A stretch of DNA of 64,000 bases, taken from contig NZ_WHOL01000117.1 in NCBI RefSeq assembly GCF_009745975.1, positions 1-64,000 on the forward strand. The letters are read 5' to 3'. Below the pieces are notes generated by a model. That model was not told the DNA's origin. It saw only the letters and a program-made list of their open reading frames with translations, and made no database searches. Made by a program: the position numbers and the translations under genes. This document shows positions 23,553-33,920 of the stretch, piece after piece. Each line of letters begins with the position of its first letter. Within the stretch, counting starts at the first letter, position 1. The DNA is from Actinokineospora pegani (GTDB lineage: Bacteria; Actinomycetota; Actinomycetes; Mycobacteriales; Pseudonocardiaceae).

Positions 23553-24209
23553 GGCCCAGCGCGACAGCTCGTAGCGGTTGGACATCTGCGTCTTGCGCAG
23601 CACGCTCGACACGTGGGTCTCGACCGTCTTGACCGAGATGAACAGCTCCGAGGCGATCTCCTTGTAGGCGTACCCGCGCGCCAGCAGCCGCAGCACGTCG
23701 CGCTCGCGCGGGGTCAGCAGGTCCAGCTCGGGGTCGTTGATCGGGGCGGCGCCGGGGCGGTTGGCGAAGGCGTCGAGGACGAAACCGGCCAGGCGGGGGG
23801 AGAACACGGCGTCGCCGTCGGCCACGCGCAGGACGGCGGTGACGAGTTCGGCGCTGGAGATGGTCTTGGTGACGTAGCCGCGGGCGCCCGCGCGGATGAC
23901 GGCGATGACGTCCTCGGCGGCGTCGGAGACCGACAGGGCCAGGAACACCACGTCGGTGTCGGTGGCCCGGACGCGGCGCAGGACCTCGGCGCCGCCGCCG
24001 TCGGGCATGTGCACGTCGAGCAGGACGACGTCCGGGCGGTGGCGGGCGATGCCCGCGACGGCCTCGCCGACGCCGCCCGCCTCGCCGACGACCTGCACGG
24101 CGTCGGTGATGGTGTCCAGCTCGGCCTTGACGCCCGCGCGGAACATGCTGTGGTCGTCAACCAGGAAGACCCGGACCCGGGGCTTGCCTGCGGGGGTTTC
24201 GGCGCTCAT
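23532..24209 (-). CDS. NarL/FixJ-type response regulator
   Basis: A 225-residue regulator with an intact receiver (acidic pair in FLVDDHSMF, phospho-acceptor D64 in VVLLDVHMP, conserved K in YVTKTIS) and a LuxR-type DNA-binding domain (LTPRERDVLRLLARGYAYKE, then FISVKTVETHVSSVLRK). The start ATG overlaps the stop of the histidine-kinase gene by four bases, so the pair is cotranscribed. It probably regulates the divergent PspC genes. Last codons overlap the EamA transporter gene on the other strand. Confidence 0.95.
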   Translation of the reverse strand: MSAETPAGKPRVRVFLVDDHSMFRAGVKAELDTITDAVQVVGEAGGVGEAVAGIARHRPDVVLLDVHMPDGGGAEVLRRVRATDTDVVFLALSVSDAAEDVIAVIRAGARGYVTKTISSAELVTAVLRVADGDAVFSPRLAGFVLDAFANRPGAAPINDPELDLLTPRERDVLRLLARGYAYKEIASELFISVKTVETHVSSVLRKTQMSNRYELSRWASDRRLV

Positions 24210-25477
24210 GGGCTCACTTTCGTCCGCGGCATGTGGAGCTGCACCTCGGTGCCCTCCCCCGCCGCTGTGCGCAGCCGGACCGCACCGCCGTGCCGCTCCA
24301 TCCTCCCGTGGATGGAGTCGGCGAGGCCATGCCGGTCTCCCGGGACGGTCTCGGGGTCGAACCCCTTGCCCCGGTCGCGGATGAACACCGTGATCTTGTC
24401 CTCCTCGACCTCGGCGTACACCGACACCTCGGCGACCTCGGCGTGCTTGGCGGCGTTGACGATGGCCTCCCTGGTGGCCAGCACGACCGGGCGCAGCCGG
24501 TCGTCGAGGGGGCAGTCGCCGACGAGCACCGGGGAGACCTTGATGGCGAAGGTGTCCTCGACCTCGCCCGCGATCCGGTTGACCGCCTCGGACAGGGTGT
24601 CCTCGGGGACCCCGGGCCGGGCGCCGTAGCCCGCGGGCCCGTACAACCAGCTCCGCAACTGGCGCTCCTGGCCGCGGGCCAGCCGCAGCACCTCGCGCGG
24701 GGCCTCGGACTGCTTCTGGATCAGCGCGAGCGTCTGCAGCACCGAGTCGTGCAGGTGCGCGGCGATCTCGGCGCGCTCCTCGGTGCGGATGCGCGCGGTG
24801 CGCTCCTCGCCCAGGTCGCGGACCAGCCGCAGCCACCACGGCACGGACAGCAGGCCGACCCCGATCAGGGCGGCGAACACCGCCAGCAGCGCGAACTGGA
24901 CCTGGTCCAGGCCGATGCTGCGGAGCAGGAAGATCACGATTCCGGCGACGACCAGCAGCGCGCCCGCGCCCACCCGCAGCCCGGCCGCGCGGCCCCCGCC
25001 GAGCAGGGCGCCCTTGACCTTGCGCCGCTGCGCCTGGTCGGCCTCCCACCACACCAGGGCCGTGCCCACCAGGGCCACCCCGATGCCGCCCGCCACCCAG
25101 GCGTTGACCATCCCGGAGAGCGTGCCCATCCCCACCGACAGCCCGGCGCCCACGGCCACCAGGCCGAACGCCTGCTGCCGCTCCCGCGCGCCGACCTCGG
25201 GCGCGGGCCGGTCGGAGGGGGCCTGCTGGCCGAAGGCCCAGAGCAGGCCGTAGGCGGCGACGCCCGCCCCGCCCAGGGCGGCGAGCAGGGCGAACGCGAT
25301 GCGCACCCAGAGCACGCGCACGTCCAGGTGGTCGGCGAGGCCGCCCGCGACCCCGGCCACGGCGCGCCCCTCCCTGCGCCGGTAGAACCGCAGGTCCTCC
25401 GGTTCCGCCACCTCGGTGGCCGCGCGCTCGATGCGGTCGATCTCCGCCTCCGGGGCGTGCAGGAGTTGGGTGCTCAC
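24206..25477 (-). CDS. Sensor histidine kinase with N-terminal PspC domain
   Basis: A 423-residue kinase. A PspC domain (about 31-83, FYRRREGRAVAGVAGGLADH) with its membrane helix opens the protein, followed by further helices to about 225. The phospho-acceptor histidine is in EIAAHLHDSVLQTL (near 241). The ATPase domain has REAIVNAAKHA and DRGKGFDP followed by GLADSIHGRMERHGG. The GTG at 25477 is preferred to a TTG at 25522 because it directly precedes the conserved region, though no strong ribosome site is seen. Fusion of PspC to a NarL-type kinase suggests envelope-stress sensing. Confidence 0.93.
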   Translation of the reverse strand: MSTQLLHAPEAEIDRIERAATEVAEPEDLRFYRRREGRAVAGVAGGLADHLDVRVLWVRIAFALLAALGGAGVAAYGLLWAFGQQAPSDRPAPEVGARERQQAFGLVAVGAGLSVGMGTLSGMVNAWVAGGIGVALVGTALVWWEADQAQRRKVKGALLGGGRAAGLRVGAGALLVVAGIVIFLLRSIGLDQVQFALLAVFAALIGVGLLSVPWWLRLVRDLGEERTARIRTEERAEIAAHLHDSVLQTLALIQKQSEAPREVLRLARGQERQLRSWLYGPAGYGARPGVPEDTLSEAVNRIAGEVEDTFAIKVSPVLVGDCPLDDRLRPVVLATREAIVNAAKHAEVAEVSVYAEVEEDKITVFIRDRGKGFDPETVPGDRHGLADSIHGRMERHGGAVRLRTAAGEGTEVQLHMPRTKVSP

Positions 25478-25588
25478 CCAAGGATGCTCACACGCGCGCG
25501 CCCGCGCCACATCGGGGTTCAACCCTGAGACTCAGTTCAGGGTCGCTCCCGGATGTGCCGGGGCGGGCGGGCGGACAGAGTGGTCACC

Positions 25589-26830
25589 GTGAGTGGGACA
25601 CAGACGCAGGGCGTGGAAGACACGCTGAAGGACTTCTGGGCGACCCGGCCGAGGCGGCCCCGCAGGGGGCGCAAGGTCGCGGGCGTCGCGGCGGCGATCG
25701 GAGACCGCTACCGCATTGATCCGGTCATCGTCCGGGTGGCGTTCGCCGTGAGCGCCTTCTTCGGCGGGGCGGGCGTCGCGCTCTACCTGCTGGGTTGGCT
25801 GTTCTTCGCCGAAGAGGGCGACGAGGCCTCCGCGGGCGAGGCGCTGCTGGGCAAGGGCCGCAGCTCGGTGTCGACGCACCTGGCCGTCGTGCTGGCCATC
25901 GCGCTGATCCCGGCGGTGAGCTGGTTCCTGGACCGGGACTTCACCGGGTTCGTCGGCGCGGCGGCGGCGCTGGGGCTGCTGTTCCTGCTGCACCGCAACC
26001 GCGGGCACCTGGGACCGGTGCGCACCTACGAGCCGACCGCGACCGACAACCACCCGCAGCCCGCCCGGCGCCCGGCCACCGGCGAGCAGCAGGCCGGGGT
26101 GGACCAGTCCGACCAGCCGCGGCAGCCGCCCGCCTGGGACCCGCTGGGCGCCGCGCCGTTCGCCTGGGACCTGCCCGAGCCGGGGCACGCCCAGCAGGAC
26201 GACGAGCCGGAGCCGAGCCCCAAGCGCAAGTCCCGGGTGGGCGCGCTGACCCTGGTCGCCATGCTGGTGGCCTGCGTGGCGACGGCGGTGTTCGGCCTGA
26301 GCTGGGCGGACGGCGGCGCCCGGCCCATGATCGGGGTGCTGCTCGCCGTGCTGGGCGCGGGCATGGTGCTCGGCGCCCTGCGCGGCGGCGGCCGGGGGCT
26401 GATCTGGCTGGCGGTGCCGCTGGCCGCGCTGGGGATCGCGACGACCGCGCTGCCGGACCAAGCGCGCTTCAACGGCTTCGGCGAGATCCACACCCGGCCG
26501 ACGTCGCTGGAGCAGGTGCAGTCCGAGTACCGCAAGTCCGTCGGGGAGGTGAACGTCGACCTGACCGGTCTGCCCGCCGACGGCGAGGTCACGACCTCGG
26601 TCGGCGCCGACGTGGGCACCGTCGTGGTGACCGTGCCGCGCACCGCCGACGTCCGCGTGAGCTGCACGACCGGGGTCGGCGACGTGGCCTGCCTCGGCTC
26701 GCAGGAGAGCGGCCCCGGCGCCGCTGTCCGCGACCAGACCGACCTCGGCGACGACGGCGAGGGCGGATTGAAGATCAACCTGACCGCAGCGGTGAGCGGT
26801 CCGGGCAGCGTGGAGGTCCGCCGTGGCTGA
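25589..26830 (+). CDS. PspC-domain membrane protein
   Basis: A 413-residue protein. An N-terminal PspC domain (about 14-72, FWATRPRRPRRGRKVAGVAA then YRIDPVIVRVAFAVSAF) is followed by several membrane helices, a Pro/Gln-rich loop (about 150-210), more helices (about 215-290) and a C-terminal strand-rich soluble domain (about 310-413). The last part resembles the DUF4097-like adhesin/sensor region found behind PspC modules. Divergent from the PspC histidine kinase, so probably its regulatory target or partner. GTG 25589 is the likely start. Confidence 0.85.
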   Translation: MSGTQTQGVEDTLKDFWATRPRRPRRGRKVAGVAAAIGDRYRIDPVIVRVAFAVSAFFGGAGVALYLLGWLFFAEEGDEASAGEALLGKGRSSVSTHLAVVLAIALIPAVSWFLDRDFTGFVGAAAALGLLFLLHRNRGHLGPVRTYEPTATDNHPQPARRPATGEQQAGVDQSDQPRQPPAWDPLGAAPFAWDLPEPGHAQQDDEPEPSPKRKSRVGALTLVAMLVACVATAVFGLSWADGGARPMIGVLLAVLGAGMVLGALRGGGRGLIWLAVPLAALGIATTALPDQARFNGFGEIHTRPTSLEQVQSEYRKSVGEVNVDLTGLPADGEVTTSVGADVGTVVVTVPRTADVRVSCTTGVGDVACLGSQESGPGAAVRDQTDLGDDGEGGLKINLTAAVSGPGSVEVRRG

Positions 26831-27100: not shown

Positions 27101-28657
<1,557 letters not shown>

Positions 28658-28700
28658 GTGTCTCCTATCTCAACGGGGAAGCCAAGTACGGGCAACTCGT

Positions 28701-28740
28701 GCCGGCACACAGCGACCCGCAGGGGCAGCGTCGTGTGCCG
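28701..28740 (-). promoter_or_regulatory. Expression-platform hairpin candidate in guaA leader
   Basis: Downstream of the riboswitch aptamer, CGGCACAC and GTGTGCCG close a long GC-rich hairpin about 43 bases before the guaA start. There is no U-tract, so it could be a GC-type terminator or a structure influencing ribosome access. Confidence 0.5.
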
Positions 28741-28856
28741 ACCGGTCCCTCCCTGGGTTTCTCTCCCGGAGATGCCTGCCAGCGCTGGTGTCCGCGCTGG
28801 TTTTCCGTGACGCTCGAACCAGACCCGCCCGGGGGGCGGCGGAACCCTAGTCACCA
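28741..28856 (-). promoter_or_regulatory. ykkC-family riboswitch aptamer (guanidine-I/ppGpp/PRPP/NDP superfamily)
   Basis: Read toward guaA, every hallmark of the ykkC fold is present in order. P1 strand GGTGAC (28855-28850) is followed by the conserved CTAGGGTTCCG (28850-28840), an inner CCGCC/GGCGG helix, GGTCTGGTTCGAG (28825-28813) and the closing P1 strand GTCAC (28811-28807). Then come a CCAGCGC/GCGCTGG hairpin (28800-28794 with 28785-28779) and the 3' element CCGGGAGAGAAACCCAGGGA. The last element differs from the guanidine-I consensus (CCCGGGAGA after the A-rich loop) and leans toward subtype 2 forms. The ligand is unresolved; a nucleotide-type ligand would fit guaA. Confidence 0.85.
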
Positions 28857-28950
28857 TCATCGGTCAGCTTGGCCGAGCATAACTTGCCCGGGTACTGGGC
28901 CGCCCGGGGCTGGGTAGGGCCTGTCCCAGGGGCCCAGGGATAGCAGAGCT

Positions 28951-32080: not shown

Positions 32081-33127
32081 TCACCACAACGACCCGGTCT
32101 CCCGAGTCCCCCCCGTGGGAGTCCGCTCGACCCGCGTCTCCTTGTAGTCGTGCACCTCCTTTGAAACGCTGTCGCCCCACTCAGTCTGATCGTCGGCGTC
32201 AGTGCTCCCCGACACCTCGGCGACCGTCTCTTTGATGATCTTGGGTGCGGTGTACTTCACCCCCATCTCCTTGATCATCTCCTCGCGGAGCATGGGCATG
32301 ACCCCGTCCTGCGCCGCCGCCCTGGCCGCGTCGGGGACGCTCTTGGCGATGTACCTGGTGAGGTCCGCGACGGTGCCAGCCAACCGGGTCAGCCGGGCGC
32401 CGAGTTCTTTCATCCCCTCCACGAACGCCCGGACGACCTTCATCGCCCGCGTCGTGCTGGAAACGATCAGCGGCACGCCCTCGACCGCGAGCGCGACCGG
32501 GTAGGTGGGCGGGACATAGCGCAACAGGATCCAGACAAGCTCCGCGAGCAGATCCGCCAACAGGCCCCGGATGAAGCCGCGCACGCCGTTGAGCATCGAC
32601 TTGGCGAGGTCGACCGCGCCTGCCACCGCGGTGGCGCTGTTGGAGATGGCAACGTAGGTGTTCGCCTGGTCCTGAGCCCAGGCGCGATAGGTATCCACAG
32701 CCGGACCCGACCAGGACGCGCAGTTGCGGTTCACGCTCTCGACCATCGACGCCGCGGTCTTCTGCACCTCCTCACTGATCTTGGTCCAGGTCTGCACCGT
32801 CATGTCGAGCGCGTCCTGGTTGCCGGTGAGCATGTCGAGCAGATCCTTGATCGGCCCGACGTGCTCGATCAGCCAGCCGAACCCCATCGACATGACCGTC
32901 GTGAGGGGATTCTCAGTTTTGAAGTCCTTCGCGAACTGGAAGACGTCATACATGCCGACGGCGAGGTCGCCCGCCGCCGCTGCGTGATCGCCCTTGCAGA
33001 AGGTCTCGATGCCCCCTGCGATGTCCTGTACGAAGCCCGCCCCCTCCAAGGCGTGTTTGAGGGGGGTCTTGTTGGCCGCGGTGCCCTTGGCCGCCTCGCT
33101 GAGGATGGGGTTGTCCGAGTTGGTCAC
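32081..33127 (-). CDS. WXG-like helical protein, probable type VII secretion cargo
   Basis: A 348-residue, largely helical protein. A helical hairpin around residues 105-175 has a WSGPA turn (NCASWSGPAVDTYRAWA), the W-x-G signature of ESX substrates. Hydrophobic helices follow (about 185-225), then a charged C-terminal segment. No enzymatic toxin domain is recognised. The GTG start overlaps the stop of the EspC-like gene by four bases, making the third gene of a YbaB/EspC/WXG-like operon. Function as a secreted effector or pore-type protein is inference. Confidence 0.7.
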   Translation of the reverse strand: MTNSDNPILSEAAKGTAANKTPLKHALEGAGFVQDIAGGIETFCKGDHAAAAGDLAVGMYDVFQFAKDFKTENPLTTVMSMGFGWLIEHVGPIKDLLDMLTGNQDALDMTVQTWTKISEEVQKTAASMVESVNRNCASWSGPAVDTYRAWAQDQANTYVAISNSATAVAGAVDLAKSMLNGVRGFIRGLLADLLAELVWILLRYVPPTYPVALAVEGVPLIVSSTTRAMKVVRAFVEGMKELGARLTRLAGTVADLTRYIAKSVPDAARAAAQDGVMPMLREEMIKEMGVKYTAPKIIKETVAEVSGSTDADDQTEWGDSVSKEVHDYKETRVERTPTGGTRETGSLW

Positions 33128-33426
33128 CCCCCGCCCCCGAACGCCGAGGTGATCGAGTCCTCGTTGACCCGGTTGGTCTCCGCCCAGGCGCGCACCGCCT
33201 CAGCGTGCTTGTCCGCTGCGGTGTGCGCCTCCTTGAGGACTGACGTCACATACTCCATGTAGGCATTGCAGTAACCAGCGAAGGACTGACCGATCACCCC
33301 GAAGTCCTCGAACCCGAGGCGGGACGCGGCCGCCCCACCCGCGTGACCGAGCATGCTGACGGTCGAGTCGACGGCCTTGGCGTGGGCGTCGATCTCGTCT
33401 GGGCTTACGTCGAAACCGTTGGGCAT
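33124..33426 (-). CDS. EspC-like type VII secretion protein
   Basis: A 100-residue protein opening FDVSPDEIDAHAKAVDSTVS and ending in a Gly-rich tail, with two long helices around SFAGYCNAYMEYV. This fits the EspC/DUF2580 group of small ESX-associated proteins. It probably pairs with the WXG-like product encoded next, with which it overlaps by four bases. Preceded 15 bases upstream by the YbaB-like gene. Confidence 0.78.
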   Translation of the reverse strand: MPNGFDVSPDEIDAHAKAVDSTVSMLGHAGGAAASRLGFEDFGVIGQSFAGYCNAYMEYVTSVLKEAHTAADKHAEAVRAWAETNRVNEDSITSAFGGGG

Positions 33427-33441
33427 GATCTCCCCCAGGGA

Positions 33442-33870
33442 TCAGCGGAACAAGCCGCCGCGCGAGTAGAAGTCGTCGTCGGGCTCGTCGTCGGAGCGGA
33501 CCGGGCCGCCGCCGCGGACGTACTCGTCCGGTTCGGGTTCCGGGAACATGGCCCGGGTCTGGTCGACGATGACGTCGAGGGTGGCGGTGCCCTGGGCGGA
33601 GGGAACCCCCGCGCGCATGGCGTCCGGCAGCTTGGCCTGGGCCTCGGCGACCAGCCGCAGGATGCGGGCGGCCAGGGTCGGTTCCTCGCGCGCGGAGTTG
33701 GTGAGGTCGAGGTGGGTGAGGTTGCCCATGTGGTTCACCTCGACCGAGACCCCGTCCTCGGACACGCGGGCGGTCACGGTGGCCATCTCGGCCTGCATGA
33801 CCTGCGCGTTCCGCACGGTGTCAGCGAGGTCACGCTCGATGTCATCGATCAACTGGTCTGGATCTTGCAC
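33442..33870 (-). CDS. YbaB/EbfC family nucleoid-type protein
   Basis: A 142-residue protein with the YbaB core (LADTVRNAQVMQAEMATVTA, then VSVEVNHMGNLTHLDLT and ARILRLVAEAQAKL) and a disordered acidic C-terminus. Such proteins bind DNA or act as chaperone-like partners and are frequent beside WXG and EspC genes in actinomycetes. GTG 33870 has GGGGGA five bases upstream and is preferred to TTG 33882. Its 5' end and promoter are duplicated at 34891-34956. Confidence 0.8.
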   Translation of the reverse strand: MQDPDQLIDDIERDLADTVRNAQVMQAEMATVTARVSEDGVSVEVNHMGNLTHLDLTNSAREEPTLAARILRLVAEAQAKLPDAMRAGVPSAQGTATLDVIVDQTRAMFPEPEPDEYVRGGGPVRSDDEPDDDFYSRGGLFR

Positions 33871-33920
33871 GACTTCCCCCAAGTCGAAAGCGCCTCATTC
33901 GGTCCTCAGCGTGCCATATG
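33855..33920. repeat. Direct repeat, copy 1 (YbaB 5' end and divergent promoter)
   Basis: Matches 34891-34956 over 66 bases with 7 differences and no gaps. It covers the first codons of the YbaB gene and the intergenic promoter, ending in CATATG. Confidence 0.9.

Follow-up and report, generated by a model that had tools for sequence, protein, structure and literature searches.

The 64,000-nucleotide stretch of Actinokineospora pegani DNA analyzed here (contig NZ_WHOL01000117.1, positions 1 to 64,000; hereafter the window) carries a ykkC-type aptamer on its minus strand at 28865–28738, 80 nucleotides (nt) upstream of guaA, which encodes guanosine monophosphate (GMP) synthase. The RNA is best read, from sequence, as a rare and apparently undescribed variant of ykkC subtype 2 standing before guaA in a small group of actinobacteria. 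With slightly better than even confidence, we regard it as a cis-acting, metabolite-binding ON riboswitch with a P0 helix, located at the 5' end of guaA mRNA and distinct from subtypes 1 and 2a–2d. Its position and conservation suggest that it controls guaA and binds a small metabolite, and the probable nature of the ligand is proposed on the same grounds.

The first-pass annotation had described an ordered ykkC aptamer followed by a hairpin, directly upstream of guaA on the same strand, and both the order and the placement hold. The core CTAGGGTTCCG, P1b, GGTCTGGTTCGAG (28825–28813, after P1b), P2, GGGAGAGAAACCC (28767–28755, between P2 and P4) and the P4 hairpin follow one another on the minus strand. 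The span it had given, 28700–28858, locates the aptamer correctly but stops short of the P0 5' strand at 28865–28861. The parts of the leader are as follows.

28738–28865, minus strand: ykkC-type aptamer from P0 to P3, matched by Rfam and by model R3 (see below); the last two bases are part of P4.
28876–28881, minus strand: putative −10 hexamer TATGCT; the predicted transcript start is just upstream of P0.
28861–28865, minus strand: P0 5' strand GACCG, complementary to 28740–28744; covariation appears with the EamA sister group, and the pairing is absent from free folds.
28855–28860, minus strand: J0/1 linker ATGATG between P0 and P1; the guaA rows have 6 nt here and the EamA rows mostly 4 nt.
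28850–28854, minus strand: P1 5' strand GTGAC, with A-U/G-C covariation with 28807–28811.
28840–28850, minus strand: ykkC core CTAGGGTTCCG, overlapping the end of P1; present in 16 of the 17 rows of alignment A5 (L034 has CTTGGG).
28825–28839, minus strand: P1b inner hairpin (helix 4), with two-sided changes in 4/7 pairs.
28812–28825, minus strand: GGTCTGGTTCGAGC, whose final base (28812) occupies the marker position and is C in the window.
28807–28811, minus strand: P1 3' strand GTCAC, covarying with the P1 5' strand.
28779–28800, minus strand: P2 hairpin, with two-sided changes in 7/7 pairs.
28748–28774, minus strand: P3, CATCTCC-GGG-loop AGAGAAA-CCC-AG bulge-GGAGG, near-invariant in two genome groups.
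28740–28744, minus strand: P0 3' strand CGGTC, separated from P3 by GAC in the window; the downstream hairpin can also pair with CGGTC.
28703–28739 (also given as 28739–28704), minus strand: P4 hairpin GGCACAC...GTGTGCCG, a candidate expression platform adjoining the P0 3' strand.
28661–28666, minus strand: likely guaA ribosome-binding site AGGAGA, judged from sequence, with a 5-base match to the anti-Shine–Dalgarno tail.
27101–28657, minus strand: guaA, GMP synthase of 518 amino acids (Pfam GATase and GMP_synt_C).

A TANNNT hexamer lies 15 to 17 bases before P0 in all 22 guaA leaders analyzed in detail, compared with a background of 0.9% of random 24-base windows from the same loci; the transcript therefore likely starts just upstream of P0. 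A sigma-70 consensus scan, which needs a −35 match, gave no match in the window.

The Rfam Guanidine-I model aligns to the aptamer end to end with 38.5 bits (E 1.2e-5 over 321 bases, 5.5e-5 over the whole genome). The gathering score is 63, and scans run at that level therefore pass over the aptamer; the one made of the window listed a single tRNA and nothing else. Model R3, consisting of 17 RNAs (six from Nakamurella and eleven of the EamA-associated group described below) and of no sequence from the window's family, scored the aptamer at 104.4 bits (E 2.1e-24), the second-best match in the window reaching 10.9 bits; R3 is not fully independent, being aligned via model R2, which holds the family and also found the EamA RNAs. 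The folding energy of the leader is ordinary (z −1.0; 38 of 200 shuffles fold as well). The support for the RNA is conservation and covariation, not free energy.

Genome searches tied this RNA to guaA. Among 120 genomes of the family, a DNA search at E 0.001 gave matches in 15, the window's own included; all seven strong matches (E 2.5e-19 or better) precede guaA, and none of the weak matches in seven family genomes (L011–L018, two loci in one genome) does. Model R1, built from eight sequences (the window's leader and these seven strong matches), was applied at E 0.01 to 397 genomes of the order and matched 38. All 16 matches scoring at least 70 bits lie before guaA; the weaker ones, where legible, are other ykkC RNAs, and weak L047 and L048 were left unassigned. 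In 200 genomes of the family, R3 at E 1e-4 matched 63 genomes, and the 13 matches of at least 93 bits were all guaA leaders (including, among the matches listed, ten genomes of the same genus), the next best scoring 65.8 bits; among the following seven (L154–L160), the three legible downstream proteins resemble EamA-type transporters by eye. A degenerate P3 signature found 17 records in 84,980 genomes, 17/17 before guaA: eleven Actinokineospora, Labedaea, Herbihabitans, Solihabitans, Pseudonocardiaceae bacterium YIM PH 21723 and two Nakamurella. In total, 24 distinct aptamers were collected, every one from a guaA leader; they come from Actinokineospora, four further lineages of Pseudonocardiaceae, and Nakamurella. 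Three loci coincide with loci of named genomes (L019=L063, L029=L052, L033=L054), which assigns the window's genus to Actinokineospora and group g49 to Nakamurella. The 22 leaders of the detailed analyses were chosen by RNA-model or signature match plus gene; the other two came from the R3 family search, with guaA checked. The aptamer of Nakamurella aerolata (L054:5826-6002) is about 50 bases longer, within P1b, and its P3 is changed to CTCA..CCCG, which may be a step towards the EamA group.

The helices are supported by covariation, which the first-pass annotation had proposed to look for among related guaA leaders; it is seen in P1, P1b and P2, and in P0 as well once the EamA sister group is added. 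In an alignment of 17 guaA leaders, pairing holds in 98.6% of cells, and two-sided changes occur in 12 of the 34 pairs (one in P1, four in P1b, seven in P2), compared with a shuffled mean of 5.6 and with 0/500 shuffles reaching 12. With the EamA group included (34 sequences), 17/34 pairs show two-sided changes, and again no shuffle of 500 was as high; for P0, these are 3/5 pairs, one via three sequences (C-G to U-A) and two via one sequence each. Because the two alignments had been fitted to this structure, the counts are biased towards it; slid controls pair 33–49%. The ends forming P0 are complementary in all leaders counted. Lower P3 is nearly unvarying, with a C-G to U-G change in one pair (L152). 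In eight leaders, P4 shows A-U to G-C changes in two pairs and one mismatch (L008).

The ordered core (CTAGGGTTCCG, P1b, GGT[TC]CGAG, P2 and a P3 with an A-rich loop) and the supported helices place the RNA in the ykkC superfamily. Together with the significant, sub-threshold ykkC score, they bear out the earlier suggestion of a ykkC-family actinomycete guaA leader, perhaps of an orphan subtype. A protein- or ribosome-binding leader that merely resembles ykkC and has no small ligand is very improbable: the function is predicted from sequence, which leaves room for it, but conservation falls on the positions of the ykkC core and P3.

The subtype was assigned by a marker base (residue 49 in the numbering of PMC6031431), which is A in guanidine-I RNAs and a pyrimidine in subtype 2 (PMC6031431). 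It is C in 22/22 guaA leaders, 12/12 EamA-group RNAs and 13/13 subtype-2d-like RNAs, and A in 24/24 guanidine-I-like RNAs; the guanidine-I-like and 2d-like labels come partly from the same tags, so the control counts are not independent, and two 2c-like RNAs were read by eye. The guaA RNAs thus carry the pyrimidine of subtype 2. That a guanidine-I riboswitch stands before guaA by chance is extremely improbable; Guanidine-I is the best Rfam match, but its score stays below the cut-off, the marker is C and not A, and the P3 5' strand reads CAYCUC, not CACGGCG.

Four subtypes with a pyrimidine at this position have been described: 2a, sensing guanosine tetraphosphate (ppGpp) before amino-acid genes; 2b, sensing phosphoribosyl pyrophosphate (PRPP) in Firmicutes before purine genes up to inosine monophosphate (IMP); 2c, sensing nucleoside diphosphates, with NUDIX and HAD genes; and the orphan 2d, with EamA and TauE (PMC5912903, PMC7266159). 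The passages on 2a–2d in these two papers leave guaA unmentioned. The gene found here is guaA in 24/24 leaders, rather than an amino-acid biosynthesis gene (2a), a NUDIX or HAD hydrolase gene (2c) or an EamA or TauE gene (2d), and the hosts are actinobacteria with guaA only, compared with Firmicutes and purine genes up to IMP for 2b. Subtypes 2a, 2b and 2c have conserved stretches before P1 and after P3, and all three bind phosphorylated compounds; the 2d consensus is nearest to guanidine-I and is without these flanking stretches (PMC7266159, PMC5912903, PMC6031431). The guaA RNAs, unlike 2d, have conserved stretches at both places. We read the guaA leaders as a separate subtype-2 group because they carry the marker C and can be told apart from the 2c-like and 2d-like RNAs found in this phylum. 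No guaA-linked ykkC RNA appeared among the papers listed in the literature searches, judged by titles and abstract openings, and a prior mention is possible. One candidate link, PMC7247131, was rejected since its GUAA is a sequence string, not the gene.

In the PRPP riboswitch G96 is paired with C75, whereas residue 96 of the ppGpp riboswitch is absent or not G (PMC6031431). All 22 guaA leaders have G at the likely residue-96 position; this mapping of the pocket rests on landmarks, a search for PRPP reference sequences having given no match in viral contigs and no useful match in plasmids, and six sequence strings being absent from PMC6031431. A divergent actinobacterial PRPP riboswitch of subtype 2b, inducing guaA at high PRPP, would agree with the ability to form P0, with the marker C and, by the same landmarks, with the G after CCCA in P3 and the CAY before P3 as likely equivalents of G96 and C75–C77. 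It is nevertheless unlikely: no purine (guanine) riboswitch was found at the gathering score in the window, nor in L003, L031 or L064, and the 6-nt P0–P1 linker and the CTCC/GGAG lower P3 are unlike those of the PRPP consensus.

Relatives of the guaA RNA occur before another gene. R2 matched 17/396 genomes of the phylum and, in two orders that do not belong to the window's class, 10/119 and 10/118 genomes. Twelve P0-capable ykkC RNAs (L066, L067, L069, L111–L119), mostly near locus positions 1501–1620, precede a Pfam EamA protein in 12/12 cases and lie outside the window's class; the other R2 matches read resemble subtype 2d, 2c or guanidine-I. In three RNAs of the EamA group, P0 changes from GACC/GGTC to GAT/ATC. 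Searching 198 genomes of the class of genome G754 with R3 matched eight, six of the EamA group and two guanidine-I-like. The guaA genes of seven EamA-group genomes (L141–L147) have no ykkC core within the fetched flank; in an eighth, G1195, no complete guaA was recovered. The two proteins scanned among the EamA-gene neighbours gave no ligand clue. Judged by sequence, the EamA-group RNA may represent another undescribed gene context for this kind of RNA.

Two further kinds of ykkC RNA were encountered. A 2c-looking RNA stands directly before a HAD-NUDIX fusion gene (L072:1501-1619 and L081), with two copies in genome G731. In the window's order, L035:1501-1616 holds a ykkC RNA before a major facilitator superfamily transporter, with GAGCGC and a possible P0 (CGAC/GTCG); it matches no other group closely.

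Nucleoside inhibitors of GMP synthase are known, and the RNA might accordingly sense a toxic compound in the manner of guanidine-I and 2d, with guaA raised as the target and the EamA pump of the sister group acting in export. The sister RNAs do stand before EamA transporters in all twelve cases, and orphan 2d precedes EamA and TauE (PMC7266159). On the evidence of the RNAs themselves, we nonetheless judge this decidedly unlikely, since a P0 is possible in the guaA aptamer and its J1/2 and P3 are not those of the phylum's 2d-like RNAs.

The arrangement of P0 and P4 suggests how a subtype-2 ON switch of guaA could work. Ligand binding would stabilize P0 and P3; the stabilized aptamer would prevent the P0 3' strand and J3/0 from pairing into a long hairpin formed around P4 downstream, and guaA would then be expressed. 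When the 3' tails of the 22 guaA leaders were folded with the P0 5' strand absent, 88 of 110 bases of the P0 3' strand paired downstream, as did 26 of 32 in the EamA group (strand located in 8/12). The bases before P0 find a better-than-shuffled-mean complement after P4 in 20/22 leaders, with p < 0.1 in 10/22; the combined p of 2e-6 for this P4 extension is nominal, as the sequences are related, and the P4 ends of the Nakamurella loci L030, L052 and L054 are probably misplaced. This geometry fits a switch between a ligand-stabilized P0/P3 and the long hairpin, and is not proof of one. The ON direction is proposed for the guaA RNA because the ykkC classes for which a direction is printed, namely those sensing guanidine, ppGpp and PRPP, are ON switches (PMC7266159, PMC6031431).

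Several results weigh against this reading. In the 17 guaA leaders, P0 shows one-sided changes only. Free folds of the 22 whole leaders give P0 a probability of 0.00 to 0.01, and folds made to contain P0, P1 and P3 are energetically less favourable in 22/22 leaders (−102.5 free and −90.0 forced in the window). Since P0 is absent from free folds, it would need the ligand, tertiary contacts or co-transcriptional folding. The tail-only folds, lacking the P0 5' strand, show no more than the possibility of the rival pairing, and the window's own P4 extension is no better than shuffled (p 0.75). No U-tract terminator was found in the leader. Accessibility of the Shine–Dalgarno sequence, calculated with start codons chosen by the analyst, was 0.34 in free folds, 0.47 with the aptamer forced and 0.46 with P0 and lower P3 forbidden, which does not separate the states. 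Furthermore, Firmicutes are known to place guaA under OFF switches, which belong to another RNA family.

Purine genes are commonly under end-product repression. The guaA RNA might be an OFF switch that represses guaA in response to a guanine-branch end product or base (GMP, guanosine diphosphate, guanine or xanthine), as in Clostridioides difficile, where guaA is turned off by a guanine riboswitch (PMC11477304). We find this doubtful. The Firmicutes switches belong to the purine-aptamer family, absent from the gathering-level scans made here, and the ykkC classes with a stated direction are ON switches; folding itself indicates no direction.

Returning to the proposed ON switch, its ligand is likely phosphorylated, because subtypes 2a, 2b and 2c, which share conserved flanks, bind ppGpp, PRPP and nucleoside diphosphates. 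Xanthosine monophosphate (XMP), the substrate of GuaA, is tentatively our leading single candidate, with low confidence, followed by PRPP and other compounds of the guanine branch such as GMP and guanosine diphosphate; it is favoured because several ykkC ligands induce genes that use them up or export them. Rather more doubtful is the fuller proposal of a fifth subtype-2 class with P0 that senses XMP, the EamA sister RNA answering the same or a related purine metabolite.

The ykkC RNAs are a striking case of one RNA fold that provides receptors for unlike ligands. The tie to GMP synthase, a well-understood enzyme, makes the list of possible ligands short and testable, and the EamA group offers a second gene context. 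RNA switches before guaA are already known, namely the guanine OFF switches of Firmicutes; an actinobacterial ykkC RNA on guaA would, if true, be a second solution. If true, a sensor of a guanine-branch nucleotide would fall between the sensing of PRPP and that of ppGpp, and it could also be relevant to orphan 2d.

Two other groups of genes in the window were noted. A YbaB/EbfC-domain protein (33442–33882, minus strand) lies beside two proteins (32081–33127 and 33124–33426) that had no Pfam match above the cut-off; by eye, this group is reminiscent of a secretion-substrate cluster. Divergent PspC-domain proteins are encoded at 24206–25522 (minus strand) and 25553–26830 (plus strand); one of them is fused to a histidine-kinase-like ATPase domain, and what appears by eye to be a response regulator adjoins.

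Compared with known systems, the guaA RNA shares the P1/P1b/P2/P3 plan and the core sequence with Guanidine-I (RF00442), and differs from it in the sub-gathering score, the marker base, the P3 sequence and the possible P0. With subtype 2d it has the marker C in common, and the EamA context of 2d is shared by the sister group; the 2d-like RNAs differ in having GAGCGGC or GAGCGAC, in CATCTGA..GGACAAAAGCC..GGAGGA (most of the 13 read) and in the absence of a P0 by eye. The 2c-like RNAs (L072, L081), also read by eye, resemble it in having GAGCG or AAGCG behind the core, CACCT ahead of P3, a P0-like GCC/GGC pairing and a long P0–P1 linker; they differ in their HAD-NUDIX context, in a linker that reads GGGATTGG, and in the loop and 3' strand of P3. 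The PRPP riboswitch (2b) has the same ykkC core, marker pyrimidine and P0-capable ends, and its S-turn G is likely kept, by landmark mapping; it differs in its occurrence in Firmicutes and its genes up to IMP, and the guaA RNA has no gathering-score guanine aptamer beside it. The 6-nt linker and the lower P3 of the guaA RNA presumably also set it apart from the PRPP consensus.

The guanine riboswitch of Firmicutes guaA (C. difficile, Staphylococcus aureus) is likewise an RNA switch before guaA; as described in PMC11477304, it belongs to the purine-aptamer family, acts as an OFF switch and is found in Firmicutes, while none was detected here at the gathering score. Closest is the EamA-group RNA, which has the same P0 around GACC/GGTC, GGTGGCTAGGG, GAGCG[CT]CAC, CACCT and a hairpin directly after P0, and differs in its mostly 4-nt linker, an AN(N)/TC internal loop in P3, the transporter gene and its occurrence outside the window's class.
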